Both the position numbers and the translations under genes were made by a program. Under the pieces are notes generated by a model. It was not told the DNA's origin, did no database searches, and saw only the letters and a list, made by a program, of their open reading frames with translations. Positions 5,917 to 60,933 of a stretch of 64,000 nt of DNA are shown here, in pieces; positions within the stretch are counted from its first letter, which is position 1; every line of letters begins with the position of its first letter. Source of the stretch: Caulobacteraceae bacterium (GTDB lineage Bacteria; Pseudomonadota; Alphaproteobacteria; Caulobacterales; Caulobacteraceae); NCBI GenBank assembly GCA_003164925.1, contig PLRV01000010.1:1-64000 (forward strand), in the 5' to 3' direction.

Positions 5917-7332
<1,416 letters not shown>

Positions 7333-7344
7333 GGACTAAGCCGC

Positions 7345-7908: not shown

Positions 7909-7918
7909 GGGGGAGCGG

Positions 7919-44789: not shown

Positions 44790-45614
44790 ATGTCGGTGAT
44801 GCGAAAAGACGGGGCGCCGATCCTGAACGGTTCAGCCATGAGCCGGGAGGACTTGCTGGCCGCCATTCCCAGACTGATGGACGAGGCGCCCTGCGCTCGG
44901 ATCGTGGGCGTGCGCCCCGCCGGCGATCCCCTGACGTTCTGGCGCGAAGCCGGCGAGACCCTGGGACAGAGCGCCCAACTCCTGGAAGACAGCGTAACCG
45001 GCGAGGAGGTGCCCGCCGCCGGAGGCTGGATGGACGTGCGCTATGAGCCGGACCGCCTGGACACCTATCGTCACGCCAATGTCGGCCAGCCGCTGCACAC
45101 CGATGGGGCTTATGGCTCGATCCTGCAGGACATCGGCGTCTTCTATCTCGAGCGCCAGGCCCAGGCGGGGGGCGAGAGCCTGTTCGTGGAGGCCGATGCG
45201 GTGGCCAACTACGCCGCCGAGATCGATCCCATGCTCCTCGCCCGCCTGTTCGACACGCCGGTGCGTTTCGGCAAGGGCAAGACCATCGGCCGGCTGACGC
45301 CGATCCTGCGTGAGCACGCGGGCAAGCTGCGGCTGAACTGGAACTATTTCCGGGTGCTGCCCGACCAGGGCGAGGGGGTCGCCCGTCTGCGCGAGGACTT
45401 CCGCCTTTTTCTGGAAGACATGGTCGAGCACGGTCCGGTGGCCGCTTTCCGGTTGGATGCGGGCGACGCGATGATCTTCCGCGATGACCAGGTGCTGCAT
45501 GGCCGGAAAGGCTACGCCGCCAAGGCGTCCGGCGACCGGCTTTTGTGGAAGACCTATTTCATCAGTCCCGCCCAGGCCGTCGCCAACGCCTCATGTCCCA
45601 GCCGGGCGGCCTGA
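44790..45614 (+). CDS. TauD/TfdA-family Fe(II)/2-oxoglutarate dioxygenase
   Basis: 274 residues with the 2-His-1-carboxylate facial triad: H-x-D in QPLHTDGAYGS and the distal His in DDQVLHGRKGY, followed by an Arg for 2-oxoglutarate in SGDRLLWKTYF. It probably hydroxylates a sugar or acyl intermediate. Lies 30 bp after the aminotransferase and immediately before the aldo/keto reductase. Confidence 0.82.
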   Translation: MSVMRKDGAPILNGSAMSREDLLAAIPRLMDEAPCARIVGVRPAGDPLTFWREAGETLGQSAQLLEDSVTGEEVPAAGGWMDVRYEPDRLDTYRHANVGQPLHTDGAYGSILQDIGVFYLERQAQAGGESLFVEADAVANYAAEIDPMLLARLFDTPVRFGKGKTIGRLTPILREHAGKLRLNWNYFRVLPDQGEGVARLREDFRLFLEDMVEHGPVAAFRLDAGDAMIFRDDQVLHGRKGYAAKASGDRLLWKTYFISPAQAVANASCPSRAA

Positions 45615-45615
45615 G

Positions 45616-46470
45616 CTGACGCCCCGGCGCGAGTTCGGGCGTACGGGGATCAGTCTCAGCGCCTTAACCTTCGGCGTCATGCGCATGCTGGCGCCGCGGT
45701 TCGATGAAGGCTCGGCCACGGACTTTCTGCTGTTCCTGCATGACCAGGGCGTCACCAGCTTTCACGTCTCCCATGAATATGAAAGCTATCCCCTGGCGTG
45801 CGCCGCTCTGAAGGGACTGCGCCGAGCCCGGCCGGACGGCGCCATTGAGATCATCGCCAAGATCGCCGCGCCGCATTTCGACGAGACCGGGTTTGAAGCC
45901 GACCGCGCCCGGCGCCTGATCGAGGCGAGCCGCCGCGACCTGGGCGTGGACCGCATCGACATCGTCCAGTGGCTGATGCGCCAGACGCCCAACGAGGATT
46001 CCGCCCGGCTGCCCGTGCTGGCGCGCGACGCGGCCCAGGCCGAGAAAACCTGGAGCGGGTTGAAGGCCGCCGGTCACATAGGGGCGCTGGCGGTCTTCCC
46101 CTATTCGGACGCCTTTCTGTCCGCGAGCCTCGACTATGAGTGGGTGGACGGGCTGGTCACCTATCTCAACCTCGCCGAGACCGAGGCCGCCCCGCACCTG
46201 GATCGCCTGCATAGGGAAGGGCGGGGCTTCGCGGCCATCCGCCCCCTGTTCGCCGGTGCGGTCATGACCGATCCCAGTCTGGTGGGCCTGGAACCAGACG
46301 CCCAGGTTCGCCGAGCGCTGCAATTCTGCCTGCTGCACCCGGGGTCGGCCTCGGCCATCCTGGGAGTCTCCAGCCGCGCCCACGCCCAGGCGGCTCTGGA
46401 TGCGATAGCCGATGTGGAGCCGGACACGGCGCAGTTTCACGCCCTGACGGCCAAGGCGCCGGAAACCTGA
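45616..46470 (+). CDS. Aldo/keto reductase family protein, start uncertain
   Basis: About 285 residues of AKR barrel: REFGRTGISLSALTFG, GVTSFHVSHEYESYP, the Lys in EIIAKIAAP, ARRLIEASRRDLGVDRIDIV, and ILGVSSRAHAQAALDAI for NADPH binding. The usual catalytic Asp position (F-D-T-A) reads F-H-V-S. No ATG, GTG or TTG lies in frame at the domain boundary. Candidates are CTG 45616, just past the dioxygenase stop, ATG 45499 deep inside that gene, or ATG 45678, which would cut the first strand. Confidence 0.65.
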   Translation: MTPRREFGRTGISLSALTFGVMRMLAPRFDEGSATDFLLFLHDQGVTSFHVSHEYESYPLACAALKGLRRARPDGAIEIIAKIAAPHFDETGFEADRARRLIEASRRDLGVDRIDIVQWLMRQTPNEDSARLPVLARDAAQAEKTWSGLKAAGHIGALAVFPYSDAFLSASLDYEWVDGLVTYLNLAETEAAPHLDRLHREGRGFAAIRPLFAGAVMTDPSLVGLEPDAQVRRALQFCLLHPGSASAILGVSSRAHAQAALDAIADVEPDTAQFHALTAKAPET

Positions 46471-46524
46471 ATGGACCTATTCCGAACAGGCCGGCAGGTC
46501 AGGGACGCACGTGCGGAGCGTTGC

Positions 46525-47130
46525 TCACACGGCCTGAACGTCGGCGGTCAGCAGATCGCTTACAACGTCCCGGTCCAGCGTTTCGGCCAGTAGCCGTTTG
46601 GCCCTGTATACGCGCACCTCGACCGCCTTGGCGCTGAGGCCCAGAATCTGGCCCGCGTCTTTGTGGGACAGCCCTTCCAGAAGTGTGAGTATGAGGGGCT
46701 CTTTCAAACCAGCCGGCAAAGCCCCTATGGCTTTGTCCAGGGCGACCAGGGCCGCTTTGGTCGATATCGTCGCTTCAGCCCCAGGGGCCAAGTCCGCGAC
46801 CAGATCGGCGTTCTCGCCCTCCGGACGACGTAAGCCCAACATGCGCCGTACGGCGTTGTAGCGCGCGTGGTCTCGGCATTTATTGAGCGCGATACGTCGA
46901 ATCCAGGCTTCAAACGGTCGCTCCGGATCAAAACGATTGAGGTTGGACATGGCCGAGACGAATGCATCTTGCATCACGTCGTAAGCTTCATCGGCGTCCC
47001 CGACGTGGCGACGGATGAAGCGATAGAGCCAATGCTTGTGCTGCGCCACGAGAAGTGAAAACGCTCTTTGCTCACCCGCATTGGCGCGTCGGACGAGATC
47101 GGCGTCCGTGGGAATAGAATCCGCCTTCAA
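46525..47130 (-). CDS. ECF sigma factor (CnrH-like)
   Basis: 201 residues with sigma region 2 (HWLYRFIRRHVGDADEAYDV, then MQDAFVSAM, FDPERPFEAWIRRIALN) and region 4 (AIGALPAGLKEPLILTLLEG, SAKAVEVRVYRAKRLL). Directs RNA polymerase to a stress regulon. Its ATG overlaps the stop of the periplasmic sensor gene, and a small membrane protein gene precedes that, the same three-part order as cnrYXH of nickel/cobalt-resistant bacteria. Confidence 0.85.
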   Translation of the reverse strand: MKADSIPTDADLVRRANAGEQRAFSLLVAQHKHWLYRFIRRHVGDADEAYDVMQDAFVSAMSNLNRFDPERPFEAWIRRIALNKCRDHARYNAVRRMLGLRRPEGENADLVADLAPGAEATISTKAALVALDKAIGALPAGLKEPLILTLLEGLSHKDAGQILGLSAKAVEVRVYRAKRLLAETLDRDVVSDLLTADVQAV

Positions 47131-47591
47131 ACCGGCCCCAGCGTCAGGGATTCGAAGACCTTCTGGTCGAGGATCTGCTGCTGCGGCGGCGTCAGGACCG
47201 CACGAATGCCCAGAACATAGAGGATCGTTTCTTTTTGCAGGGCTCCCATGGAGGTCTGCAAGCTGTCAAGCGCCCGCTGGGCGGCGGTGCCAAGCGCCAT
47301 CTCATTGGCAAGGGCCAGGCCCAACTCGGCGTCCGCCGAACCCATCTGAGCTCTCAAGGCGTTGCGGCGTTGGACGTAGCGAGCGTCGATGGCGTCGATC
47401 TGGCGCGCCTGATCGGGCGTCAGTTTCAGGTCCTGGTGGACCAGCATATAGATGTTGTCTCGCAACAGGCGATGCGCCTGAGTCGCATCGACGGGTTGCG
47501 AGTGCTGGGCCCCGAGTTTGGCGCCCGCGAATGCAGCCAGCCCCGCCAGCACCACAGTGATGGCCAGGTTGCGCACAAAGGCGCCGTTCAT
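47127..47591 (-). CDS. Periplasmic sensor of the CnrX/heavy-metal-sensor family
   Basis: 154 residues: an N-terminal helix (about 8-27) anchors a periplasmic four-helix domain with LVHQDLKLTPDQ and LQTSMGALQKETILYVLG followed by IRAVLTPPQQ. In CnrX this domain binds Ni/Co and releases the sigma factor. By my recall of CnrX, only one of its His ligands is kept here; the others appear as Tyr, Asp, Tyr and Ile. The signal sensed may therefore differ. Two bases separate it from the gene upstream. Confidence 0.75.
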   Translation of the reverse strand: MNGAFVRNLAITVVLAGLAAFAGAKLGAQHSQPVDATQAHRLLRDNIYMLVHQDLKLTPDQARQIDAIDARYVQRRNALRAQMGSADAELGLALANEMALGTAAQRALDSLQTSMGALQKETILYVLGIRAVLTPPQQQILDQKVFESLTLGPV

Positions 47592-47593
47592 GA

Positions 47594-47875
47594 TCAGCTT
47601 CCCAGTCGGATGGAGGGCGCGAAGGCGCCATCCTCCGAAAGAACAGCCATTTCGGAAAGACGGGTGGACTTTGCCGGCGGATGCATGGCCCCGAAAACCA
47701 GACCGATGGCCAGGGCGGCCAAGGTCAGGGTGGCGCGAACGCCGATAGAGCTGGCCCCGGCGCCTTGTTTTCGAGCCTGGACCTTGGCCCAGATCTGATC
47801 CTCCAGTCCATCCAGATCAGCATGGAATCTGCTTTTGGCTAGGCCGTCCAAGTCATCCTCGATCAACTGTCGCAT
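47594..47875 (-). CDS. Small membrane anti-sigma factor (CnrY-like)
   Basis: 93 residues: about 43 cytoplasmic residues (EDDLDGLAKSRFHADLDGLE), one helix (VRATLTLAALAIGLVFGAM) and a short periplasmic tail. Size, topology and position before the sensor and sigma factor genes match CnrY, which holds the sigma factor at the membrane. Direct sequence similarity is weak, so the call is mainly contextual. It heads the three-gene unit. Confidence 0.65.
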   Translation of the reverse strand: MRQLIEDDLDGLAKSRFHADLDGLEDQIWAKVQARKQGAGASSIGVRATLTLAALAIGLVFGAMHPPAKSTRLSEMAVLSEDGAFAPSIRLGS

Positions 47876-48141
47876 TGCCCCTCCTCGACATCAGCGCAGA
47901 GCCCATCGCCATCGTAATAGCCATGATATGCGCCCACTGAACAGCCGCAAGCCCGCTGGCGAACCGGATCGTCACGCTGAACGGCGTTTGACTCGGCCGC
48001 TCACAAAAAGCCGCGATCGTTTGTTCCATCTCACCCGTCTTGACCCAGCTCCACTAGCAGGCATCGGCTTGTCGCTTCTAAGGTACGCTTCCGAAGCGCG
48101 CTTCCCTCAATCGGCGCAACCGGACCGCGCCGGCTGCAACT

Positions 48142-48534
48142 TCAATTGACGATTGTGGCCCCGATCACCTGTCCGTTGACGGTAGCCTTGATGAGGCTAC
48201 CGCCTGACTGTCCATTTTTCAGCGGGTGAACGACGGCTTCGACCTTGTCGCCGACCTTGAGCGAGCGCGGCGTCCAACCAAAACGGGCGAGGAGGGGGGG
48301 GCTCGCGGCCTCGATGGACCATTCCGACACCTTGCCATTGACGTCCTTCGTCCGCAGTTGGAACCAGGAATGAGGATTGGCCCACTGAAAACCCTGGACA
48401 GTGCCGACAATCGTTACTTCCCGGGTGACGTCGTACATGGCGTTCGAATGATGAGCCTCAGCTTCATTCGCCAGTGACAGGCAGGGAACGACGAGTCCGA
48501 GCGCCAGGCACATCATGACCGCACGTCTCGTCAT
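48142..48534 (-). CDS. DUF6152 secreted protein
   Basis: 130 residues with a signal peptide ending near ANEAEA. The mature start AHHSNAMYDVTREVTIVGTV, then FQWANPHSWFQL, SIEAASPPLLARFGW and KVGDKVEAVVHPLKNGQSGG, are the family's hallmark segments. A beta-barrel fold (OB-like) is likely; no enzyme role is known. The His-rich mature N-terminus may bind metal. Members often sit beside cytochromes and metal-related genes, as here. Confidence 0.8.
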   Translation of the reverse strand: MTRRAVMMCLALGLVVPCLSLANEAEAHHSNAMYDVTREVTIVGTVQGFQWANPHSWFQLRTKDVNGKVSEWSIEAASPPLLARFGWTPRSLKVGDKVEAVVHPLKNGQSGGSLIKATVNGQVIGATIVN

Positions 48535-48946
48535 GGCTCGACTCCGCAATGGGCGACAGAGGCTTACGCTCGAAAGTGGATACGCGCCGGGCGCCGGTTT
48601 CCCTCAGCCTCCGCACGGACGATCAGGGCGATCGACGAAGGACTTGTCCGTTCAAACCCGATACGCATTAGCATGCGCCCCGCCTCCTTGATCCAGCCCA
48701 TTCTCGCCAGCTATGGAAGCGGACGTCCGCCATGGGTAGATCCCCGCCTGCAGGGCGGTCCATTTTCTTGGTTCGAGGTCTCGCGGATGAGGGATCGGAT
48801 CGGGTCCATGCGTAAAGATCCGTAGCTAAAGACATCTAACGCATGAACGAGTTTCACAACGCCGTCCGGGCCCAGCCCCACCGCCGCTTCATCGGCGTCA
48901 TCGACCAGCTTGCGTCGGATGGCCGGGCGCGGGGCGAGCGCGCAGC
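48535..48946. other. 412-bp gap before the cytochrome operon
   Basis: No convincing gene. A 93-codon minus-strand frame (48711-48992) and a 35-codon plus-strand frame (48843-48950, its TGA overlapping the cytochrome ATG) cross it, but neither has a ribosome-binding site or recognisable similarity. The region should hold the promoter of the cytochrome-to-SPFH gene series and that of the DUF6152 gene. Confidence 0.35.
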
Positions 48947-49714
48947 ATGAACCAGCCAACCGGGGTTTCTCGGCCCGCCGCCCGCCCTTCATTTTTCAGG
49001 TTATATTGGCGTCGATGTCTGATGGCCGCGATAGGGGTGCTGGCAATAGGTTTTGCCGGGTTGGGCCTGACGCGGCTCCAGAGGATCGACGAGGAACGAC
49101 GTCTGTTGGGGGCGGCTCCGAACGATGTTCCTAGTCATCCTGCGTGGGTGCGTCTGGCTGTCGACCAGGCACGACCCTTGTTCGCTCGAGAGTGCGCCGG
49201 CTGTCACGGCGGCGACATGAAGGGCCATATCGCTACCGGCGCGCCGAATTTGACCGATCAGAACTGGTTGTACGGTGATGGCAGCGTGTTTCAGATTGAA
49301 CGGACCATCCTCTATGGGATCCGCTCAGATCGTCAGAAATCCCGCAACATCACAGAAATGCCGGCCTATGGCTTGCGAGGTCAGCTCAGCGACGCTGACA
49401 TCCGCAACCTGGTTCAATACGTACTCCAGCTCAGCGGTCAGCCCAACGATGCCCAAGCCGCCATACAGGGCAGGGCGGTGTACAATGGCCAGGGGGGCTG
49501 CTTTGACTGTCACGCCGCAGACGCACGAGGCAACTCGGACTACGGCGCGCCGGATTTGACGGCCAACAGCTGGCTTTATGGGGGTGATCCTCAGTCGCTC
49601 TATAATTCGATCTATTCTGGCCGTCACGGCATGATGCCGGCCTGGATTGGAAAACTGACGCTTGAACAGATCCGAGCCCTCGCGGTTTATATTTATGTCG
49701 CCTCCCACCATTGA
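48947..49714 (+). CDS. Membrane-anchored dihaem cytochrome c (CcoP-like)
   Basis: 255 residues: an N-terminal helix (about 24-44) and two cytochrome c domains with C-x2-C-H motifs CAGCHGGDM (about 83) and CFDCHAAD (about 186). Probable axial Met residues are in ITEMPAYG and HGMMPAW. The pattern resembles subunit III (FixP/CcoP) of cbb3 oxidase, but no oxidase subunits are near. It may pass electrons in the periplasm for the linked genes. Overlaps the next gene by 20 bp. Confidence 0.82.
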   Translation: MNQPTGVSRPAARPSFFRLYWRRCLMAAIGVLAIGFAGLGLTRLQRIDEERRLLGAAPNDVPSHPAWVRLAVDQARPLFARECAGCHGGDMKGHIATGAPNLTDQNWLYGDGSVFQIERTILYGIRSDRQKSRNITEMPAYGLRGQLSDADIRNLVQYVLQLSGQPNDAQAAIQGRAVYNGQGGCFDCHAADARGNSDYGAPDLTANSWLYGGDPQSLYNSIYSGRHGMMPAWIGKLTLEQIRALAVYIYVASHH

Positions 49715-50654
49715 AGCGCCCTTGAAACGCCGCCGCGGAGCCGAATTGCGCGCGGCGCTTTTGGCGCGGCCCCAGCGGCGGCTGGCCCTGGCCCTGGCTG
49801 CGGCGGCGACAGGATTGGCGCTGGCCGCGGCTGGCGTTTTTCACCCCGCTCCACGCGATCTGACGTCGGTCCCGCCTGGCGATGTGGCCTTGGTGAATCA
49901 GCAGCCCATCTTGATGAGCGACTTCGTCGACGAAACTCAGAGCACCGCGGGCGGGTCGTTCGCGGACGCGACGCCGGCCGACCGCGCCAGGGTTCTGCGC
50001 AACATGATCGACCAGGAATTGCTGGTTCAGCGCGCCCTAGCGATTAATTTGCCCGAGCAAGACACCAGCGTGCGTGACGCCCTGGCCGATGGCGTGAATA
50101 ATGAGATCAACTCGGGAGTCTTGGCTACCTCCCCCGACGAAGGCGCCTTGAGGGTCTATTTCGCCGCCCACCAATCGGATTACTCAAGCAAGGGTTCGAT
50201 GAACCTGACCGATCTGGTCCTGCATGTGGGCGGTTTCGAGAACGTGGACCAGAGCGTCAACCAGGCCTTGGCCGACGCCGCAGAGGCGGTCTACCAGCTA
50301 CGCTCCGGCGCCGCGCTGGACTATGTTCAGCAGCACTTCAGCATGATGGATTCCGGCAAGGTCAGTGGCGATACCCTGGACTTTGCCGCTCAAATTCATC
50401 TGAGCCCCAAGCTCTACGCCGTGGCCCGAGGTCTCAGTGACGGACAGGTGTCCAACCCTATCGCCGACACCGACGGTGTGCATGTCCTGGTCATGCACCA
50501 TCGCGTGGCGCCCGTTCCCGCCGATTTCGATAGCGTGCGAAACAACGTCTACAGTGACTACACCAAGGCGCGGGAAGCCGAGGCTCAGCAGGAAAATCTG
50601 AAATTCCTCCGCGCCACCGCCCAGATCCTGATCGCGCCGGGTCACGGCGAATGA
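49695..50654 (+). CDS. Parvulin-like peptidyl-prolyl isomerase (SurA/PpiC-like)
   Basis: 319 residues. A helix (about 31-49) exports or anchors it. SurA-like N-terminal segments follow (DVALVNQQPILMSDF, ARVLRNMIDQELLVQRAL) and then a rotamase-like domain (SGAALDYVQQHFSMMDSG, VARGLSDGQVSNPI, DGVHVLVMHHRV). Probably a periplasmic folding helper for a partner in this operon, such as the cytochrome. The first in-frame ATG after the cytochrome is 49695. Confidence 0.75.
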   Translation: MSPPTIEAPLKRRRGAELRAALLARPQRRLALALAAAATGLALAAAGVFHPAPRDLTSVPPGDVALVNQQPILMSDFVDETQSTAGGSFADATPADRARVLRNMIDQELLVQRALAINLPEQDTSVRDALADGVNNEINSGVLATSPDEGALRVYFAAHQSDYSSKGSMNLTDLVLHVGGFENVDQSVNQALADAAEAVYQLRSGAALDYVQQHFSMMDSGKVSGDTLDFAAQIHLSPKLYAVARGLSDGQVSNPIADTDGVHVLVMHHRVAPVPADFDSVRNNVYSDYTKAREAEAQQENLKFLRATAQILIAPGHGE

Positions 50655-51892
50655 GATCTTTTTTTGGATGGGGCCCGCTCGCGGCTGGGGTGCTGCTGCT
50701 GCTTGGCGCGATGCCTTCAGCCGCCGCCGCGCCGTCCACCGACGCTAGCTATTCCATCTGGACCGTCGATGGATCGACCGTCCACGTTCGTTTCATCCTG
50801 CCCAAGGCCGAGGCCGTCCTATTGGCGGCCGGGGCGCTGCGGATCGACGCCGCCGCCGCCGCCGCCGCGGGCGCGCAACTCAGCGTGAGCGCCTCTTCGG
50901 CCGATTGTCCCGCGCTCATCCAGGATGAGTGGGTAGGCAAGTACTACATCCTGGCTCCTGCCTCCGGCGCCTATCGCTTCGAGATGACCTTCGCCTGTCC
51001 CAGCGCCGTTGGCTTGACCCTGCACAACCATGTGCTGTTCTCAGCCGCGCCCGGTCATATCGACTATGCCAGCGTCCAGGTGGACCGCCGCCGGGCCGTG
51101 CTGGAAACGTTCACCGCGGCGCATCAGGATCTGGTGTTGCCCAGCATCGGTCAGACGCTTCATGGCCCAGGATTGGCCCCGTTCGCGCGGCAGGGTCTGG
51201 CCCGGTTGTGGGGCGCGGACGCCCTGGCCCTCGTGGCGGGACTGCTGTTGTTGGCGCGGCGCTGGCGCGACCTGCTGGACATCGGTTGCGCCTTGGCCCT
51301 GGGATACGCGACAGCCCTGGCGATTATGCTTGGCGGCCTGGTCGCCCCGGACCTCTCGATCGCGGCGGCGGCGGCGGGTTTCCTGGTCGCCGTCCTCGGC
51401 CTCTGCGCTCTTCGCGCGCAGACGGATGGACCGCCGAGCGCACCGCAATGGCGTGTGGCGATGGGCGCCTGCGCCGGCGTCCTTGGAGCCGGAGTCTTGG
51501 CCGCAGCCGCGGCCAAAGGTCTGTCGACCGGTCTTGCAGCGGCCGGTTTAGGTCTGTTCTGCCTGGCCCAAGTTTTCATCGCGGGGAACGGACCGCGCAT
51601 ACGCCTGTTGCAGTTCGCCCCCGCGGCGCTGTTCGGCCTGCTCGATGGCGCCGTCTGGGCGCAAGCCTTGCATCCTCTGCGGATGACCGGGGCGGGTTTG
51701 ACGCCCGCTTTGCTGGGTTATGACCTCGGCGCGTTCCTCGCCCTGGCGGCGGCAACCGGGGCGGGCATGGCCGGACTATGGATGTTGAGGCGTTGGCTCA
51801 GGCCGGTTCAGCTCTTCGCGGGCGATCTGGCGGCGGCGGCCTTGACCGGGCTTGGCTTGTTCTGGTTTGTCAGCCGCCTTTACGGGGTTTAG
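50651..51892 (+). CDS. HupE/UreJ-like membrane protein, diverged
   Basis: 413 residues: a signal peptide, a periplasmic beta domain of about 150 residues, then seven or eight helices. The architecture and the segment FARQGLARLWGADALALVAG match the HupE/UreJ_2 group, where the same place usually reads G-x-D-H. The His is absent here. HupE-type proteins are linked to nickel or to hydrogenase and urease loci. Overlaps the isomerase by 4 bp. Confidence 0.6.
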   Translation: MRSFFGWGPLAAGVLLLLGAMPSAAAAPSTDASYSIWTVDGSTVHVRFILPKAEAVLLAAGALRIDAAAAAAAGAQLSVSASSADCPALIQDEWVGKYYILAPASGAYRFEMTFACPSAVGLTLHNHVLFSAAPGHIDYASVQVDRRRAVLETFTAAHQDLVLPSIGQTLHGPGLAPFARQGLARLWGADALALVAGLLLLARRWRDLLDIGCALALGYATALAIMLGGLVAPDLSIAAAAAGFLVAVLGLCALRAQTDGPPSAPQWRVAMGACAGVLGAGVLAAAAAKGLSTGLAAAGLGLFCLAQVFIAGNGPRIRLLQFAPAALFGLLDGAVWAQALHPLRMTGAGLTPALLGYDLGAFLALAAATGAGMAGLWMLRRWLRPVQLFAGDLAAAALTGLGLFWFVSRLYGV

Positions 51893-51972
51893 CGGATTTC
51901 TGCTGGTCGACGGGCCGGCCTTGAGGGAATGAAGGCGGCGGCGCGTATTTCCGTGAGACTAAGGATGATTGA

Positions 51973-54051
51973 ATGGCTGGCATATCAGGGAGCGGGCCTG
52001 TGAGTTTATCTCAGGATGCCGTGGACCTTCTGCCGGGCGCCCCCTTGAGCCAGGCGCCCCAGTTGGCGCGTCGGCTGATCTGGCTGTACGGCATCTACGC
52101 CGTTGTCCTCGCCCTGTTCTACGCTGTGGCGCTTCTGCCTTTGCACGGCTTCGACAAGCTCAAGGGCATCAGCCACGAGTTCCTGGTCGGCGGGCTAGGG
52201 CCGGTGTCGCTGGCCGCGGTGGTCCTGGCCTTGACCTGCCTGGTCGCCATGGCCCTGATGGCCAATGCGCGCCTTGCCCTGCGCCGGGCCGAGGCTGCGA
52301 GGGTGGCCGGCGAACTTGAGGGCGGGACGCCGGACCTATTGGCGCCCCTATGGCGGCTGGGACCGGGCCTTCTGGCGCGCCAGGGTCAGGCGATCGTACT
52401 GCCGTTCGGACTGTTGATCATCGCGCTTCTGGTTTGGCGTCAGTGGCCCACCCCCGGCGCGCCGGTCTCGCCCGAGGCGAATCTCGCCGCGGCGCTCGTC
52501 GTGGGCCTCGCGTTTCCCTCGCTGATCGCTGAACGGATGATGGCCGCGTTTCCCGCGGCGCAGATGCCCGAGGCGCCCGGCGTGCGCCGCGTGCTGTTGA
52601 CCGTCACGGTTGTTCTGGCGCTGGGCGCTCTGAGCGAGATCGGCCGTACGCTGAGCTTCGGCTGGATCGTCTGGATCCAGCGCGGCGCTATGGTCGTCTG
52701 CGCCCTCATCGCGGCGGAATGGGCCTTGCGCGCCCTGGCCCGGCTGTTCCTGCCGACCCCCACGGCGGACGTGGCCAAGGCGGCCACCGACAGCATCGTC
52801 GCGGCGCTGATCACCGGCGGACCTCGCGCGCCGGGCGCCCTGATCCGCACCCATCTTGGCCTGGACTTCGCTCGCAGCTGGGCCTTGTCCTACCTCAGCA
52901 AGGCCGCCATTCCCGCCCTGGTCGGCACCCTTCTGCTATGCTGGGTTCTGAGCGGCGTGAAGCTGCTCGATGACAACCAGCGGGGGATTTACGAGCGGTT
53001 CGGGGCGCCGGTGAAGGTGCTGGGGCCCGGCTTTCACGTGCTGCTGCCATGGCCGATGGGCCGCATGCGCCCGGTGGAATACGGTGTCACCCACACCATC
53101 GCAGTAGGCGCGCAGCAGGGGCCGGACGCCTACGAAAAAGATGAGAAAGCGGAGCGCATCGGCGCCGAGGATATTCCCCAGGCCAACATGAACCGCCTGT
53201 GGAACACGGCTCACGCCACCGAGGCCGAGTATCTGGTGGCCAGCCAGGCCGAGGGCCAGCAGGGCTTTCAGTTGGTCAACGGCGAGATCCTGGTGATCTA
53301 CCGCACCGGCCTGTCCGACCGAGCCGCGATGCAGTCGGTTTACGGTTCAGCCGACCAGGCCACGGTGGTCGAGGAGGAGGCCAATCGTCTGGCCACCCGG
53401 TTCTTCGCATCCCATACCCTCGACCAACTGCTGGTCGGGCAGGCGGCGGGCCTGCAGGACGCTCTGCGCGGCGAACTGCAGACGGCGGTCGACGCCGACC
53501 GTGCGGGCGTGGACATCGTCTCGGTGTTGATCGACGCGATCCATCCGCCGGCCGGCGCAGCGGTAGCCTACCACTCGGTCCAAGCCGCCGAAATCAACGC
53601 CGACGCCAGCGTGGCCCAGGCGACCGCCCACGCCACGCGCACCACCGGCGTGGCCCAGCAGGAGGCGCACCAGTCGGTCTCCGCCGCCCAAGCCGGCGCC
53701 GTCGAGAAGGTCCAGGTAGCCACGGGCGACGCCTATCAGTTCGCCGCAGACCGCAATGCCTATCGCTCCAGCCCGCCGGCCTTCCTGCTGGAACGGCGCG
53801 CACGCAACCTGACCCCCGCCTTGCGCAGCGTCCGCCTGATGATCGTCGACGCTCGCCTGAGCAAGGATCAGGCGCCGATCATCGATATGCGTTCGGCCGC
53901 CGCGCCGGTCGCCGCCCAAGCCGCGGGCTCGCCGAACACCGCCGCCGATATTCCCCAGCCGGGGACATCCACCGAAGGGCCGCCGCCTCCGGCGACCAGC
54001 GAACAAGCCGATGAAGAGTCCGCCGCCCGCGCTCGCGGCCAACAGAAATGA
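51973..54051 (+). CDS. SPFH protein with polytopic N-terminus (HflK-like)
   Basis: 692 residues. About six hydrophobic helices occupy residues 35-260. A last helix (PALVGTLLLCWVLSGVKLL) leads directly into an SPFH/Band 7 domain (DDNQRGIYERFGAPVKVLG, then PGFHVLLPWPMGRMRPVEYG). A long Ala/Gln-rich coiled region follows, with a Pro-rich tail. HflK itself has only one helix, so this is an extended variant. First of three consecutive SPFH genes, 9 bp before the next. Confidence 0.8.
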   Translation: MAGISGSGPVSLSQDAVDLLPGAPLSQAPQLARRLIWLYGIYAVVLALFYAVALLPLHGFDKLKGISHEFLVGGLGPVSLAAVVLALTCLVAMALMANARLALRRAEAARVAGELEGGTPDLLAPLWRLGPGLLARQGQAIVLPFGLLIIALLVWRQWPTPGAPVSPEANLAAALVVGLAFPSLIAERMMAAFPAAQMPEAPGVRRVLLTVTVVLALGALSEIGRTLSFGWIVWIQRGAMVVCALIAAEWALRALARLFLPTPTADVAKAATDSIVAALITGGPRAPGALIRTHLGLDFARSWALSYLSKAAIPALVGTLLLCWVLSGVKLLDDNQRGIYERFGAPVKVLGPGFHVLLPWPMGRMRPVEYGVTHTIAVGAQQGPDAYEKDEKAERIGAEDIPQANMNRLWNTAHATEAEYLVASQAEGQQGFQLVNGEILVIYRTGLSDRAAMQSVYGSADQATVVEEEANRLATRFFASHTLDQLLVGQAAGLQDALRGELQTAVDADRAGVDIVSVLIDAIHPPAGAAVAYHSVQAAEINADASVAQATAHATRTTGVAQQEAHQSVSAAQAGAVEKVQVATGDAYQFAADRNAYRSSPPAFLLERRARNLTPALRSVRLMIVDARLSKDQAPIIDMRSAAAPVAAQAAGSPNTAADIPQPGTSTEGPPPPATSEQADEESAARARGQQK

Positions 54052-54060
54052 TCTAAGCCG

Positions 54061-55038
54061 ATGACTCACGACTTCGACCCCAATTCCTTGGACGCCCAAG
54101 ATCACGACGACCAGAACGAGCGTCTGAAGATGACCATTCGCGTGGCCATCGCTTCGTTCATTCTGCTGATCGCGCTGATCGCGGAATGCATGGTCATGGT
54201 GCCGGCTGACGAGGCGGTGGTGATCAGCCGTCTGGGCGATCCGGTGCGGGTCATCACAAAGCCGGGCTTGTCCTGGAAGCTGCCGGCCCCCATTGAAACC
54301 ACCATTCCGATCGACTTGCGTCTGCGCACCACCTCGACCGGCCTGCAGGATACGGGCACCCGGGATGGCCTGCGCGTGCTGGTGCAGGTCTACACCGCCT
54401 GGCAAGTGCCGGACGATCCGCAGGCGATCCGGCAATTCCTGCGCGCCTTGCGCAACCAACCGGACGAAGCGGCGCGCCAACTGCGCAGCTTCGTCAGCGC
54501 CGGCATGCACATCACCACCTCGAACTTCAACCTGGCCGACCTGATCAACAGCGACGCGCGCAATGTGCACATCGATGCCTTCGAGCAGCAACTTCGCGGC
54601 CAGATCGCGCCGCAGATGCTGCAGGGCTACGGCATCCAGGTGCGTCAGGTGGGCGTGGAGCGCCTGACCCTGCCGGACGTCACCTTGGCCGCCACGGTGG
54701 CGCGCATGAGCGCAGAACGCGAAACGGTCGCGGCTGCTCGCACGGCCGACGGCCTGCGCCGCGCCGCCGAAATCCAGGCGGACGCGGACCGCGACGGACG
54801 CGAGACCGTGGCCAACGCCCAGCAACAGGCGGCCAAGATTCAGGCCGACGCCGAGGTCGCCGCCGCCCAGATCTACGCCAAGGCCTACAAGGCCGATCCC
54901 AGCCTCTACACGACCCTGCGTTCGCTTGATGCGGCGGGCAAGGTGATGGGGCCGAACACCACGGTGGTTCTGCGCACCGACGCCGCGCCATTCCGGGTGC
55001 TCAGCGAGGGGCCGACCGGCGGACGGGGCGGGAAATGA
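54061..55038 (+). CDS. SPFH protein, HflC-like
   Basis: 325 residues with one N-terminal helix (about 25-45) then VVISRLGDPVRVITKPGLSW and the rest of the SPFH domain. RQVGVERLTLPDVTLAATVARM, a coiled region rich in Ala/Gln/Glu and a C-terminal TTVVLRTDAAPFRVL match HflC. HflK/HflC form large cages that restrain the FtsH protease. This copy is not next to hfq/hflX, so it is a specialised set. Overlaps the third SPFH gene by 4 bp. Confidence 0.85.
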   Translation: MTHDFDPNSLDAQDHDDQNERLKMTIRVAIASFILLIALIAECMVMVPADEAVVISRLGDPVRVITKPGLSWKLPAPIETTIPIDLRLRTTSTGLQDTGTRDGLRVLVQVYTAWQVPDDPQAIRQFLRALRNQPDEAARQLRSFVSAGMHITTSNFNLADLINSDARNVHIDAFEQQLRGQIAPQMLQGYGIQVRQVGVERLTLPDVTLAATVARMSAERETVAAARTADGLRRAAEIQADADRDGRETVANAQQQAAKIQADAEVAAAQIYAKAYKADPSLYTTLRSLDAAGKVMGPNTTVVLRTDAAPFRVLSEGPTGGRGGK

Positions 55039-56111
55039 GCGACGCCCTTTCCATAGGGGACGGCCAGCAGCCGGCCGAGGCGCCCGGTCCGATCCTGCAG
55101 TCGGCCGTTATCGGCTTCCGCATCGTCTACGTCGTAACGCTTCTGCTGGGCGTTCTGTGGCTTGGCTCCAACTGCCGCGTCATATCTTCCGACACCCAGG
55201 CGGTCGTGACCGAGTACGGGCGCGTCGTGCGCACGCAGAAGGCGGGCCTGTTGCTGGCCTGGCCGCGGCCGATTGAAGCGGTGCGCCTGTTGCCTGGGCC
55301 TGATCGGCAGCTCAGTCGGTCTGTCGCCGCCTTGCCGCCGGTGGCGGGGATCGCCTCATCCACGGGGGTCAACGGCAACACCGTACCGGCGGGCGCCACG
55401 CCTTACCTGACGGGCGACGGCAAGGTGGTGTTGCTCGACGCGACCTTGATCTACCACATCACCGATCCGGCGGCTTACGTCCTGTCGCAAGACCACGTGA
55501 CGCCCGCGATGGACCGCATGTTCCGCGCTTCGGCGGTGCGCGTCGCCGCCGGTCAGGCGCTGAACGACTTCCTCGTGTTTCAATCCACCGGCGACCAGGC
55601 CGGGGCGGCCTCGATCGAGGCCGTGCGCGGCGCCGTGCGCGATCGCCTTCTGGGCAGCATCAATGCCCGGCTCAAGGCCCTGGCCGCCCAAGGCGACGGC
55701 CTGGGCGTGGAGGTCGACCGGATCGACATGACCGCCTGGCTGCCCTCGGACGCCAAACAGGCGTTCGACGCCGTGCTGACCGCAAGCCAAAAGGCCGACC
55801 AGGATATCGCGGCCGCCAATACCGACGCCGAGCTGCGCCGCCAGGGCGCTCAGCGCGAGGCCGACCGGCTGATCAGCGCCGCCCAGGCTGCGGCTCTGGA
55901 GCGCACGGTCACCGCCAATGTGGACACCACCAGCATCGGCGCCATCGAGCGCACCTCAGGCTCGCACACGGGTCTGGCCGAGCAGACCTACCGCAACACC
56001 ATCGGCGGCGTGCTGGCCAAGGCGGGCGCGGTCATCGTGATCGATCCCAAGAGCGGCCAGCGCATTCTCATGAACGGTCCGGCCCAGGGCCAAGCGGTTC
56101 CCATGAAATGA
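55035..56111 (+). CDS. Third SPFH/Band 7 protein
   Basis: 358 residues. One helix (about 26-46, YVVTLLLGVLWLGSN), then the SPFH start VISSDTQAVVTEYGRVVRTQ. A variable insertion around 90-125 (GIASSTGVNGNTVPAG) is followed by an Ala/Gln coiled coil (QREADRLISAAQAAALERT) and a conserved end GGVLAKAGAVIVIDPKSG. It is neither a plain HflK nor HflC. It probably co-assembles with the two upstream SPFH proteins and precedes the P-type ATPase by 60 bp. Confidence 0.8.
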   Translation: MSDALSIGDGQQPAEAPGPILQSAVIGFRIVYVVTLLLGVLWLGSNCRVISSDTQAVVTEYGRVVRTQKAGLLLAWPRPIEAVRLLPGPDRQLSRSVAALPPVAGIASSTGVNGNTVPAGATPYLTGDGKVVLLDATLIYHITDPAAYVLSQDHVTPAMDRMFRASAVRVAAGQALNDFLVFQSTGDQAGAASIEAVRGAVRDRLLGSINARLKALAAQGDGLGVEVDRIDMTAWLPSDAKQAFDAVLTASQKADQDIAAANTDAELRRQGAQREADRLISAAQAAALERTVTANVDTTSIGAIERTSGSHTGLAEQTYRNTIGGVLAKAGAVIVIDPKSGQRILMNGPAQGQAVPMK

Positions 56112-56170
56112 GCCTATCCTAGCCCATATTCCATTTTAGCCTCTCCTCCCCCATATCCCGGGTTGGCCCC

Positions 56171-58177
56171 ATGAGCTTTTCTGATCGCCCCATCCGCATG
56201 CAAAGCCTGACCATGAACGACCCCTCGTTCGTGCGCAGGGGGTTGGCCTTTCTGGGTCTGGATCGGAAGCCGCGCCGACCCTCGGATCAGCCATCGCTGC
56301 TGGAGAACGCCGAACGCCTGATGATGGCGGCGGAGCTGACCCTGTCCTTGGCGTCCGCCTGCCTGCTGGCGGTGGCTTTGGGCATCCGCTTCCTGCTGCC
56401 CGCCGAGCGCGGTTTGTCCGACCTGGTGGCTGGGGCCGCCGCCCTGCTGGTGGCGGGGCCGGTGTTCCTGGAAGCGTGGGAGAGCATCAAGGAGCCCAGC
56501 CTGGACGGGGTGACCGAACGTCTGGTCGCCCTGGCCCTGCTGGCCGCGTGGGTTACGGGCGACATGATGACCGCCGCGCTGTTGCCGATCGTCATGACCG
56601 TGGGTCACGTGCTGGAGGAGCGCAGCATGCTGGGCTCGGACGAGGCCGTGAAGGCCCTAGGGCGCCTGACCCAGGCTGACGCACGGCGAATTCGTTCCGA
56701 CGGCGGCTATGAACTTGTCTCCACCACGGCCTTGCACGAAGGCGACATCATCGAACTGCGCGCGGGCGAGCGTCTGCCGGCCGATGGAATTGTACGCAAG
56801 GGCCTGTCCAGCCTGGACATGGCTTCGCTCACCGGCGAGTCCGTGCCGGTGGAAGTCGGTGAAGGCGACGCGGCTCTGGCCGGTTCGATGAACATCGATG
56901 GCCTGCTGCACGTCCAGCTGACGCGGGTCGGCGAGGACACGACCCTGGGCCGCATCATCACCCTGATGCGTGACGCCGAGGAAGCCAAGCCGCCGGTGAC
57001 GCGCCTGCTGGACCGGTACGCCAATCAGTACATGATCCTGGTGATCCTGGTGGCGGCGGGCACTTGGTTCGTGACCAACAACGTTCCTTCGGCCCTGGCG
57101 GTGCTGGTGGCGTCCTGCCCTTGCGCGCTGGTGCTGGCGACGCCGGCCACCTCGGTTGCGGCCATCGTGGTGGCGGCGCGGCATGGCATCCTGATCAAGG
57201 GTTCCGCCTTTCTCGAGCACCTGGCCGATGTGACGTCGGTTGTGTTCGACAAGACCGGCACCATCACCACCGGCCAACTGCATCTGACGGAGGCGCAGGT
57301 CGAGCCCGGCGCCGACGAGGCGCTGATGCGCCGCCTGGCGGCGAGCTTGGGCGCGTCGAGCAACCACCCCTTGAGCCGGGCGGCCATGACCTGCTGTCCT
57401 CCAGAAGAGCGCCTGGCCGTGCTGGAACCGCGCGAGATGGGCGGCTTCGGCGTTGTGGGGATGTATGAAGGACAGGAGGCCGCCTTAGGCCGCGCCGACC
57501 TATTCGTCCGTCTCGGCGTCGAGGCGTCCGCCCCGCCGGCCCACGACGGTCCGATTGCGGGCGTCAGCCTGGGCTCCAAGTTCCTCGGATGGCTGCTGTT
57601 CCTCGATCAACTGCGACCGGGAGCCGAGGAAGCGGTGCGTGAGTTGCGCGGGCTGGGCATGGAGCGGATTTTGCTGCTGACCGGCGACCGGGCGTCGGTG
57701 GCTCAGAACGTGGCTGCTGAAGTCGGTATCGATCAGGTCGACTCCGGCATGCTGCCGCAGGACAAGCTGAACCGTGTGCGGGACGAAATCCGTCTGGGCT
57801 ACCGGCCCATGGTGGTGGGCGACGGCATCAACGACTCTTTGGCCTTGCGGGCCGGAGCGGTGGGTGTGGCGATGGGCGCGCAGGGCGCGGACGTGGCCAT
57901 GGCTTCGGCGGATTTGGTGCTGATGACCAACGATCTGCGCCGACTGAGCACATGCATCCGCCTCAGCCGCCGTTGCCGTCGCACCATCTATGTCAATGTC
58001 GCCATCGGCCTGACCTTTACCTTCGGCCTTACCGCCCTGGCCAGTGTGGGCGCGCTGGGCGTCGAAGCCCCGATTATCGCTGCTGTGCTGCATAACGTCA
58101 GCACCTTCCTTGGCCTGGGCAACGCCGGTCGCGTCATGCTGTTCGACGAAACCCAGCCCGTTGTGGCCAAGGCATAA
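56171..58177 (+). CDS. P1B-like cation-transporting P-type ATPase without N-terminal metal domain
   Basis: 668 residues. Core motifs are present: TGES in SLTGESVPVEVG, CPC in LVASCPCALVLATPAT, phosphorylation Asp in VFDKTGTITTG (Ile for the usual Leu), HP in SSNHPLSRA and GDGINDSLAL. There is no HMA or His-rich N-terminal domain. The last helix region reads AAVLHNVSTFLGLGNAGRV, where zinc-type pumps have a conserved Asp. Metal specificity is thus open. Start could also be ATG 56216. Lies 60 bp after the SPFH genes and 57 bp before a NiCoT transporter. Confidence 0.85.
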   Translation: MSFSDRPIRMQSLTMNDPSFVRRGLAFLGLDRKPRRPSDQPSLLENAERLMMAAELTLSLASACLLAVALGIRFLLPAERGLSDLVAGAAALLVAGPVFLEAWESIKEPSLDGVTERLVALALLAAWVTGDMMTAALLPIVMTVGHVLEERSMLGSDEAVKALGRLTQADARRIRSDGGYELVSTTALHEGDIIELRAGERLPADGIVRKGLSSLDMASLTGESVPVEVGEGDAALAGSMNIDGLLHVQLTRVGEDTTLGRIITLMRDAEEAKPPVTRLLDRYANQYMILVILVAAGTWFVTNNVPSALAVLVASCPCALVLATPATSVAAIVVAARHGILIKGSAFLEHLADVTSVVFDKTGTITTGQLHLTEAQVEPGADEALMRRLAASLGASSNHPLSRAAMTCCPPEERLAVLEPREMGGFGVVGMYEGQEAALGRADLFVRLGVEASAPPAHDGPIAGVSLGSKFLGWLLFLDQLRPGAEEAVRELRGLGMERILLLTGDRASVAQNVAAEVGIDQVDSGMLPQDKLNRVRDEIRLGYRPMVVGDGINDSLALRAGAVGVAMGAQGADVAMASADLVLMTNDLRRLSTCIRLSRRCRRTIYVNVAIGLTFTFGLTALASVGALGVEAPIIAAVLHNVSTFLGLGNAGRVMLFDETQPVVAKA

Positions 58178-58234
58178 AAACAGGACCTGATCCGAGGGGT
58201 TCACGCGGCTGGTGCGTATGCATCAGCAGGAACC

Positions 58235-59359
58235 ATGTCGCTCGCGGGCCAAGCCGCGAAAAGGACCGGGATGTTCAATCTGTTGCGGCGCGCTATTGGC
58301 AATCAGTCGCCTAAGCTACGGCACAGGATTGCGGCGATCTACGCCCTGCTGATCGTGATCAACCTGGGGGCCTGGATCTGGGCCTTCGCGACCTTCAGCG
58401 TTCAGCCCGTGCTGCTCGGCACGGCCTTGCTGGCCTACGGCTTTGGTCTGCGCCACGCGGTGGACGCCGACCACATCGCCGCCATCGACAACGTCACCCG
58501 CAAGCTGATGAACGAGGGCAAGCGGCCAGTGACGGTGGGCTTCTTCTTCGCCCTGGGCCATTCCACCGTGGTGATCCTCGCCGCGCTCGCCATCGCGGGC
58601 ACGACCAAGGCCGTCAATTTCGATGCGCTCAAGCAGTACGGCGGCCTGATCTCCACCTCGGTCTCGGCCCTGTTCCTGTTCCTTATCGCGGCCATGAACC
58701 TGATGATCCTGCGCGGGGTGTGGAAGACCTTCCGCCAGGTCCGCGATGGCGGCGCCTATGTGGAGGAGGACTTCGACCTGCTGCTCAACAAGCGCGGGGT
58801 GGTCTCGCGCTTCTTCCGGCCGCTGTTCAAGCTGATCAGCCACAGCTGGCACATGTTCCCGCTCGGCTTCCTGTTCGGTCTGGGGTTCGACACGGCCACC
58901 GAGGTGGCCTTGCTGGGCATCTCGGCGACCCAGGCGGCCAAGGGCCTGTCGATCTGGACCATCATGGTGTTTCCGGCCCTGTTCGCCGCCGGCATGGCGC
59001 TGATCGACGCCACGGACGGCATCCTGATGCTGGGCGCCTATGACTGGGCCTTCGTTAAACCGATCCGCAAGCTCTACTACAACCTGGTCATCACGATTTT
59101 GGCGGTGGTCATCGCCGTGCTGATCGGCGGCATCGAGGCCTTGGGCCTGATCAAGGATCAACTCAACCTGTCCGGCGGCCTGTGGAACAAGGTCGACATG
59201 CTCAACGGCAACTTCAACAGCCTGGGGTTCATCATCATCGGCCTGTTCATCGTGGCCTGGGTCGGTTCGATCATCGTCTATCGCTATATGGGCTACGATG
59301 AACTGGAGACACGCGCTGTCGCGAAAAGATCGCCGAGTGAAGAGTTGTTGAGGGACTAG
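58235..59359 (+). CDS. NiCoT-family nickel/cobalt transporter (HoxN/NixA-like)
   Basis: 374 residues with about eight helices. The signature RHAVDADHIAAIDNVTRK in helix 2 (H-x4-D-H), FALGHSTVV, FLFGLGFDTATEVALLG and LFAAGMALIDATDG are all typical of high-affinity Ni2+/Co2+ uptake permeases. AGGAACC precedes the ATG. Being next to an efflux-type ATPase and near a CnrX-like sensor supports a metal-handling locus. No nickel enzyme or cobalamin operon is adjacent. Confidence 0.92.
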   Translation: MSLAGQAAKRTGMFNLLRRAIGNQSPKLRHRIAAIYALLIVINLGAWIWAFATFSVQPVLLGTALLAYGFGLRHAVDADHIAAIDNVTRKLMNEGKRPVTVGFFFALGHSTVVILAALAIAGTTKAVNFDALKQYGGLISTSVSALFLFLIAAMNLMILRGVWKTFRQVRDGGAYVEEDFDLLLNKRGVVSRFFRPLFKLISHSWHMFPLGFLFGLGFDTATEVALLGISATQAAKGLSIWTIMVFPALFAAGMALIDATDGILMLGAYDWAFVKPIRKLYYNLVITILAVVIAVLIGGIEALGLIKDQLNLSGGLWNKVDMLNGNFNSLGFIIIGLFIVAWVGSIIVYRYMGYDELETRAVAKRSPSEELLRD

Positions 59360-59415
59360 AAAATCTTAAATCGCCACGGAAGCACGGCGCTTTCAGAAGC
59401 GCCGTCAGGGCCAAG

Positions 59416-60672
59416 TCATCCCGTCAGGGCCGTTGCGGATAGCCGTACCGGCAAGCATTCCACATTGCACGTGGCCGCGCCCAGGGGACTTAGCGATAAG
59501 CCCGAAACCCCGGGTCCACTGATGAACGTGACGCTCCTGGCAACGCAGGCCGCCACCTCGGTCCTGGTGGCGATGCGGGAAACGCCTGTCCCGATCTGCC
59601 GACGCTTGAACAGCTCGGGGTCCTTCATGAAGGTGCGTATTGCCGCTAGGCGCGTCCGCGGTTCGGCCTCGGGCAGCGCCAATGTGATGTAGCCGACGAC
59701 ACCGGCGGGCAGCTTCTCGACTTCGAATCCCGGGTCCGACACCAACAGTTCCACCCTGGCGAAATTGTTAGCCAGAAATCGAAGCGCCTCGCTCAAGGCG
59801 AAAAAAGAAGGATCGCGAGGGGTCTCGTAGATCGACGCCACCAGCCTGGCCCTCTGCGCCGCAGGCAGGCGCGAAAGGAACTGGGCATAGGCTGTTCGCC
59901 CCGCCGGTCGGATCAGGGATGAGAAGTTCAAGGGAACATACAGGACCCCGCCGACCTTGCTCTGGCTCACGGCGGCTATGGCGCTTTCCACGCAGCCTTC
60001 GTCGAACTCCTCAGGAGCGATATCGTACAGCGCCCTGATGCTAACCAGATTGTCATGCAGGGTGTTCACGCTCAGGGGTTTGCACAGCGCTAAATCGCCG
60101 ATGAACCGACCAGAGGGAATGGAGTACACGCCGCGATAGACCGGATCGTAGTTTCGATCGAACTTGGGCGCGGAAAACCTCAAGGGCTGTGCGGCGCCTG
60201 GAGAAGGCGTGGAGGGACCGATGGGGATGGATTGCACGCCCTTGGCCGTTAGCCGGTTCAGTTGTCCCTCGAAGGGCGGATGAATGTCGCTGCCTTCGCC
60301 CGCGGTCATTTTTCTCAGGTCGTTGATGTCTATGTTGGCGAAGCGATGGGTTTCCAATTCGCTGCCCTCGAACACCAGCAACGTCACCTCCCCGCTGCCC
60401 GAAGCACCGAACAGCTTGACCTGAAGCTCGTGCGCCAAGGCCTGGAGGCTGACTGTGTCCAGCACACGAACCCTCGGATCCGACAGGATGTAGGCGAAGG
60501 GCGTCATTTGAATGAATTGGCGGGGCCACGCCCAGCGGCTCTCGAGGAAGGCGTTGATCAGCTTGCCCACGAGAATGTTGAGCTCCGTTGACGTGGGCTT
60601 GCCCTGCTTTCCCTGCACCAGCACCCGAAGGCAGGCGATGGCTTTGGATACCTCATCGACGTTAGTCATCAC
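59416..60672 (-). CDS. Uncharacterised 418-residue protein, faint EAL-like C-terminus
   Basis: I do not recognise this protein firmly. No signal peptide or helices. The C-terminal half has phrases placed as in EAL phosphodiesterase domains (FDEGCVESAIAAVSQ, VLYVPLNFSSLIRP, LVASIYETP, GTGVSRIATRTEVAACVARS, VTFISGPGVS), but none of the E-A-L, N, D-D or metal ligands of an active enzyme. The N-terminal half (TLLVFEGSELETHRFANI) is unplaced. It could be an inactive relative that senses or scaffolds. Monocistronic. Confidence 0.5.
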   Translation of the reverse strand: MMTNVDEVSKAIACLRVLVQGKQGKPTSTELNILVGKLINAFLESRWAWPRQFIQMTPFAYILSDPRVRVLDTVSLQALAHELQVKLFGASGSGEVTLLVFEGSELETHRFANIDINDLRKMTAGEGSDIHPPFEGQLNRLTAKGVQSIPIGPSTPSPGAAQPLRFSAPKFDRNYDPVYRGVYSIPSGRFIGDLALCKPLSVNTLHDNLVSIRALYDIAPEEFDEGCVESAIAAVSQSKVGGVLYVPLNFSSLIRPAGRTAYAQFLSRLPAAQRARLVASIYETPRDPSFFALSEALRFLANNFARVELLVSDPGFEVEKLPAGVVGYITLALPEAEPRTRLAAIRTFMKDPELFKRRQIGTGVSRIATRTEVAACVARSVTFISGPGVSGLSLSPLGAATCNVECLPVRLSATALTG

Positions 60673-60933
60673 ACACAGACCTGAATTCGATTACATAGAC
60701 ACGAACGTGGCCGCCCGGTAATCGGGCTAGGTTTGAACATTACCCGCAGATCATCCTGTGGTTTAATGATGGCTGTCGATGAAGAATCATCAGTTAACGG
60801 GCCGGCTTAGCGAATTTTCGTTGAATGATTTATTGTGGCATAGGACGAAGCGCGATGGCTCCGTTGTCTGGGCCAGAGTCTGATGGCGTCATCTTGGGAC
60901 ATGCGGCAGGTGGGCCACTCATCGCCCACGCTG
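60673..60933. other. Intergenic stretch with a partial copy of the tipN-type repeat
   Basis: No gene seen between the EAL-like gene and the histidine kinase. Bases 60875-60896 match 28053-28074 in 20 of 22 positions. The right half of the palindrome is missing here, so this is a partial copy. The segment is relatively AT-rich near 60720-60840 and should contain the promoter of the EAL-like gene. Confidence 0.45.

Follow-up and report, generated by a model that had tools for sequence, protein, structure and literature searches.

We analyzed a 64,000-nucleotide stretch of DNA from a Caulobacteraceae bacterium (assembly GCA_003164925.1, contig PLRV01000010.1; hereafter the window), in which three genes for SPFH proteins are followed by a gene for a P1B-type metal-transporting ATPase and then by one for a nickel/cobalt permease. 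This tandem had been proposed in a preliminary description of the DNA, and all five open reading frames (ORFs), each on the + strand, were recovered where it had placed them and matched the expected families. The first gene, S1 (51973..54051), encodes an HflK-like SPFH protein of 692 amino acids, which combines six extra N-terminal membrane helices with an anchor helix, an SPFH domain, and a long C-terminal helix. S2 (54061..55038) encodes an HflC-like SPFH protein of 325 amino acids with a short tail, and S3 (55035..56111) encodes a third SPFH protein of 358 amino acids; the Band_7 domain was matched in all three (E-values of 1e-15, 2e-26, and 3e-14 for S1, S2, and S3). The ATPase (56171..58177, 668 amino acids) scored 500.7 bits against TIGR01525, over the cut-off of 346.25, and the co-directional NiCoT (HoxN/NicO) permease (58235..59359) scored 418.3 bits against NicO/TIGR00802, likewise over the cut-off (333.05). 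The genes are closely packed, with 9 bp between S1 and S2, a 4-bp overlap of S2 and S3, 59 bp between S3 and the ATPase gene, and 57 bp between the ATPase and NiCoT genes. No terminator-like site was found between the five genes, such sites being rarer in the window than in shuffled sequence, and a search for riboswitches gave no Rfam match up to E 0.5 across 45500-60700.

The first four genes recur as a unit in other genomes. A scan of genome contigs with an alignment of S2 returned at least 258 relatives. The 80 best ones, mostly from Pseudomonas and Paraburkholderia, were kept and combined with 7 plasmid loci to give 87 relative loci. All four genes were present in the order S1-S2-S3-ATPase at 82 of these loci, with S1 found at 84, S2 and S3 at 87 each, and the ATPase at 85; at four loci (L043, L044, L046, and L048), one gene is missing at a contig end. 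A sample of 398 genomes from the phylum gave a bimodal distribution of scores, in which 11 genomes, including that of the window, had S2 at 518-605 bits and the remaining S2 matches among those listed reached at most 149 bits. The other 10 high-scoring genomes all carried the four genes in order on one strand. Since the relatives and the phylum sample were both found via S2, these counts state how often the other genes are present given S2; in addition, many relative loci end at contig ends, and neighbors may lie beyond the flanks covered. Pairwise distances of the four proteins correlated at 0.85-0.95 over 30 loci, as measured without a control. The preliminary description had named the SPFH-SPFH-SPFH-ATPase order in other genomes as its check, and a lack of co-occurrence as what would count against it; the opposite was found. 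Taken together, the association is real and conserved, and the conserved unit consists of the first four genes (51973-58177).

The NiCoT gene lies outside this unit. It was found in the flanks covered at 0/87 relative loci and 0/10 phylum-sample loci, which rules it out as a conserved partner (0/97 other loci). Of the metal pump set that had originally been suggested, the association of SPFH proteins with a pump and the metal role considered below are supported, whereas the tie to the permease finds no support beyond the window.

The unit was probably spread by horizontal transfer, because its distribution is patchy and it occurs on plasmids. Its relatives are scattered sporadically over the Alpha-, Beta-, and Gammaproteobacteria, plasmids included; one (L047) comes from a Bryobacteraceae metagenome-assembled genome, and the other relatives noted are from Proteobacteria. 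In one Pseudomonas-type genus, 13/25 genomes had S2 at E 1e-60 or better, and among 298 other genomes of the window's own order the best S1 match had an E-value of 1.4e-13. A protein search of plasmids gave 13 records, 10 of which had S1 relatives with 35-38% identity covering 51-60% of S1 (from Rhizobium, Burkholderia, Paraburkholderia, and Klebsiella) and 3 of which had weak matches annotated hflK. Seven plasmid regions were examined: in the four that are annotated, a pair of HflK/HflC-type genes is followed by another SPFH gene and then by a gene for a P-type ATPase, and ORFs together with tblastn revealed S1-S2-S3-ATPase in the three that are unannotated.

The pumps of these loci form a recognizable group. 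The window ATPase has CPC in transmembrane helix (TM) 6 and HNxST...N..R in TM8, its DKTGT, TGES, and HP motifs are intact, and no N-terminal metal-binding domain was found by Pfam. CPC in TM6, DKTGT, TGE, and HP are kept in 86/86 ATPases compared, as are His641, Asn642, Asn651, and Arg654 in TM8, with Thr645 kept in 85/86. The pairing of CPC (TM6) with HNx[S/G]T (TM8) marks the unit's ATPases within this data set. The window pump was over the cut-off for the cadmium family TIGR01512 (468 versus 313.5 bits) and below that for the copper family (356 versus 397 bits). Its best matches of solved structure were 7qbz, which we take to be CoaT, ZntA (4umv), and CopA entries (including 3rfu), and its TM8 H..ST aligns with HEGST of 7qbz. 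ZntA and CopA likewise have CPC as their membrane motif. ZntA-type P1B-2 exporters use a TM7 lysine and a TM8 aspartate as metal ligands; lysine is not among the commonest residues shown for positions 608-628 of the unit's ATPases, and the 4umv alignment ends before TM8.

The SPFH proteins are distinct from canonical HflK and HflC. The six-helix extension that had been read on S1 was borne out by an AlphaFold2 model, which has six long predicted helices at residues 24-257 followed by the anchor helix at 303-326, with hydropathy in agreement. In a tree of 63 sequences, including 16 of S1, 16 of S2, and 14 of S3, each of the three proteins formed one clade with support of at least 100/99, the S2 clade being sister to canonical HflC and those of S1 and S3 grouping with HflK. 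All three score below the family cut-offs (S1 50.6 and S3 58.8 bits against 159.4 for HflK TIGR01933; S2 108.0 bits against 134.4 for HflC TIGR01932). The preliminary description had set the trio apart from a housekeeping hflKC locus in the same genome, and this claim failed. In the window genome (completeness 99.4%), Band_7 was matched at five places, namely S1, S2, S3, and two others; these two proteins are read as stomatin-like and as another SPFH protein, neither with an SPFH neighbor in the stretch covered. No protein of this genome exceeded the hflK cut-off, which 26/41 genomes in the same search had a match over, and a separate housekeeping hflKC is ruled out there by this search and the Band_7 survey. 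Four Pseudomonas genomes that were checked have further SPFH genes besides the trio, including one adjacent pair, and this pair, from the two Pseudomonas genomes in the tree, groups with canonical HflK and HflC.

By gene order, protein families, and kinship with Pseudomonas loci, the window unit is of the same kind as the Pseudomonas aeruginosa hmtA cluster, PA2439-PA2438-PA2437-(PA2436)-PA2435. Its proteins share 58% (S2), 57% (ATPase), 40% (S3), and 37% (S1) identity with those of Pseudomonas locus L169 over the aligned parts. Published work on PA2434-PA2439, cited throughout for the parts of each paper available to us, connects this cluster with zinc. PA2435 (HmtA), PA2437, PA2438, and PA2439 are up 5.6-14.4-fold in a znuA mutant and have a weak Zur site (PMC4542158), the cluster proteins are more abundant without zinc, not all of them significantly (PMC11761036), PA2437-PA2439 are induced by N-acetylcysteine among zur-regulon genes (PMC9431628), and Zur shifts the PA2439 promoter in a gel (PMC8531726). 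HmtA is described as importing zinc and copper (PMC8456098), for which this paper and a review (PMC10393844) both cite Lewinson 2009. The trio corresponds to PaFlo5-6-7 in PA14 and is considered probably horizontally acquired (PMC13086221). Pump and SPFH genes are mostly handled apart in these papers, except that PMC4542158 and PMC11761036 list both as one zinc-responsive cluster; in the available main text of PMC13086221, neither HmtA nor the term P-type ATPase appears, and zinc is mentioned once, in connection with FtsH. A literature search pairing HmtA with SPFH found no paper, and co-mentions of HflK with HmtA do occur; the coupling of SPFH proteins to the pump seems barely studied.

The sequences of the homologous loci agree with this. 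A Zur-like box, GTTATAACATAAC, was present with at most 2 mismatches near the S1 start in 42/84 regions compared to 8/420 random regions. The scan covered 350 bp upstream to 90 bp into the S1 frame on one strand with five typed consensus forms, of which the best-separating is quoted, and the related loci are not independent. The S2 tail that precedes the membrane helix at the N-terminus has five or more histidines in 73/88 proteins (7-20 histidines), being strongly His-rich in, for example, L037, L040, L049, L050, and L111; some of the zero counts stem from start-codon choice or contig ends (L046, L048, L067, and L078). Metal-uptake genes also occur nearby at several loci: ZnuABC, a Fur-family regulator, and ZigA at L037, ZnuABC/Azt-like genes at L046, one ABC-3 permease gene at L045, and, at L048, a ZIP zinc transporter gene (3886-4629) close behind the ATPase gene and convergent with it, together with a COG0523 gene. 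ZigA-like genes were found at 17/86 loci other than L037, all in Pseudomonas. Kinship with the hmtA cluster, together with the Zur-like boxes and the His-rich S2 tails seen in homologues, supports a metal role of the unit. These observations point fairly well to a unit that serves the acquisition or careful handling of a scarce transition metal, which would be zinc in many homologues and perhaps copper too.

Around the unit, the window has genes that are rare at the other loci. Three precede S1 in the same orientation, none of the gaps exceeding 80 bp, and encode a CcoP-like c-type cytochrome (48947..49714; 168 bits, below the ccoP cut-off of 180), a PpiC-type peptidyl-prolyl isomerase (49662..50654), and a HupE/UreJ_2-like membrane protein (50651..51892), whose match is weak (23.7 bits, Pfam cut-off 24.5) and whose gene overlaps that for PpiC by 4 bp and ends 80 bp before S1. 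The HupE-like gene is possibly co-transcribed with S1; a weak terminator-like site lies at its end (51847-51859), just ahead of S1. The cytochrome gene recurs beside the unit at L043, L044, and L045, PpiC is also found at L043 and L044, and the HupE-like gene also at L044; at these loci they are divergently oriented.

On the - strand lies a set of three genes at 46525-47875, for an extracytoplasmic function (ECF) sigma factor (46525-47130), a Metal_resist/CnrX-like protein (47127-47591), and a small one-helix protein with no NCBIfam match (47594-47875), which we label CnrYXH-like from their order and families. A DUF6152 gene (48142-48549, - strand; 113.5 bits) stands between this set and the cytochrome gene. 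The CnrYXH-like set was rejected as a regular companion of the unit, since all that the other loci showed was a single weak ECF match (L063) and a single DUF6152 match (L078). Behind the NiCoT gene, a 418-amino-acid protein is encoded at 59416-60672 (- strand) with no Pfam match at E up to 0.001, and farther away two adjacent genes at 38741-42222 (- strand) encode glycosyltransferases of family 41, one of which has TPR matches.

As the overall best explanation, we favor with modest confidence an hmtA-type unit for a scarce metal, in which the pump would be held or controlled by an SPFH dome. S1, S2, and S3 may co-assemble into an HflKC-like periplasmic dome, which would hold the ATPase in the membrane, or gate or protect it, during metal scarcity. 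Docking of the pump may fall to the six extra helices of S1, and in most homologues metal could be handed over by the His-rich cytoplasmic tail that the HflC-like protein carries. Trio and pump would act jointly. A caged pump is plausible because HflK/C forms cages with FtsH (PMC12048511) and stomatin domes enclose AQP1 and UT-B (PMC12407830).

Several observations weigh against this explanation, some of them from the literature on the Pseudomonas cluster. hmtA mRNA is not reduced by zinc addition (PMC8531726), hmtA is called the exception among Zur-bound uptake genes (PMC10393844), which conflicts with the gel shift of PMC8531726, the import direction of HmtA needs confirmation according to the same review, and SPFH gene deletion had only slight effects in the tests reported in PMC13086221. 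Others concern the homologues and the model: at L062 (Paraburkholderia piptadeniae, 7000-10000), S2-S3-ATPase occurs with S1 absent from the stretch covered; the two nearest genes on each side of the unit are mostly mixed, judged by the 25 commonest of 118 families, in a neighbor survey that used 83/107 neighbor ORFs after overlapping or doubtful ones were dropped and 2 added ones (85 rows, 29 loci); and the S1 model reaches medium confidence (pLDDT 75.8, pTM 0.48, 24 sequences). The remainder concern the window itself. The best Zur-like box before its S1 has 5 mismatches on the + strand and 4 when both strands are scanned, and before its cytochrome gene the best has 5 in the two-strand scan, where 9/200 random pieces reach 4 mismatches or fewer. 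The His-rich S2 tail is missing (2 histidines), and the sole FUR-family protein found in the window genome is closer to Fur than to Zur models and below both cut-offs.

The window thus represents a variant form. Its metal may differ from that of the homologues, because it has no His tail and no Zur box and has NiCoT and a CnrYXH-like regulator alongside; zinc, copper, nickel, or cobalt may be handled. The S2 tail has 0-2 histidines in the near relatives L043, L044, L045, and L047 and 16 in L049, and no shared upstream palindrome stood out in the window and L043-L045. Neither ZnuA nor ZIP family members were detected in the window genome, which says little on zinc supply since a Caulobacter control was also without a match.

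A stronger form of this explanation is that the trio makes a sealed periplasmic dome around a primary pump, a private chamber that would concentrate or shield the scarce metal and that NiCoT could share in the window. Such a chamber could explain why a pump whose relatives are exporters appears to import. We regard this form as rather doubtful.

In the main rival explanation, FtsH would govern the turnover of the pump. The trio would be a dedicated FtsH modulator that shields the pump from the protease or, once metal is available again, hands the pump over to it, so that proteolysis rather than transport would be the point of the association. The kinship of S2 with HflC and of S1 and S3 with HflK, known FtsH partners, fits this proposal, an FtsH link is noted in PMC11761036, and the trio could also fill the HflK role in the window genome, where no HflK exceeds the cut-off. 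However, none of the three proteins reaches its equivalog cut-off (HflK or HflC), and the trio is no stand-in in the two Pseudomonas genomes in the tree, which have a separate canonical-type pair. Nor was an FtsH family among the neighbors shown (25 of 118 families), in a survey that included no search aimed at FtsH. On balance, we consider an FtsH modulator unlikely.

Less likely still is an ordinary metal-resistance exporter with membrane-organizing accessories, which in the window would belong to a nickel/cobalt/zinc/copper stress island under the CnrYXH-like system. In its favor, efflux is the usual function of P-type metal pumps (PMC10393844), the window pump is over the cadmium-family cut-off, its best solved relatives include pumps named copper efflux or exporting, and the CnrYXH-like set does lie close by, on the opposite strand. 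Against this stand the metal importers near some homologues and the Zur-like box in half of the upstream regions, a signature of starvation, as well as the published induction by zinc lack (PMC4542158); at other loci no CnrYXH-like set turned up close to the unit, apart from the weak sigma-factor match at L063. That the genes are merely chance neighbors without a functional link is very improbable: NiCoT accompanies the unit in the window alone, and outside the window the genes for the cytochrome, PpiC, and the HupE-like protein were seen beside it only in part, in three close relatives, but the order of the four core genes is kept across three classes, on plasmids and genome contigs, which refutes chance for those four.

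The roles of most bacterial SPFH proteins are unclear, though the family occurs in all domains of life (PMC12005517). The genetic linkage of the trio to a single pump, which is fixed and mobile, points to a likely SPFH client and makes the question of a cage testable in a type of locus that is known but poorly understood. It raises the possibility that metal pumps are caged by proteins in some bacteria, it bears on the open puzzle of how HmtA could import despite a family of mostly exporters, and it makes the link between SPFH proteins and pump worth experiments.

Compared to known systems, the window unit is closest to the hmtA cluster, with which it shares gene content by annotation, and its protein families are those of Pseudomonas loci such as L169. 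The window differs from it in having no convincing Zur-like box and no His-rich S2 tail, in adding NiCoT and the cytochrome/PpiC/HupE-like trio, and in a genome without an HflK over the cut-off. With canonical HflK-HflC, the trio has in common the SPFH domain and N-terminal anchor helix, S2 being nearest to HflC and S1 and S3 on the HflK side, while it differs in scoring below the equivalog cut-offs, in its separate clades, in having three subunits rather than two, and in the six extra helices on S1 and the linkage to a P1B ATPase. The unit's pump shares its catalytic core with P1B ATPases of known structure (7qbz, 4umv, and 3rfu) and differs in pairing CPC with HNx[S/G]T, with no N-terminal metal-binding domain found. 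Stomatin domes (PMC12407830) are formed by a human erythrocyte protein, around a water channel and a urea transporter rather than a primary pump, and what they share with the dome proposed here is that SPFH oligomers are able to enclose membrane transporters.

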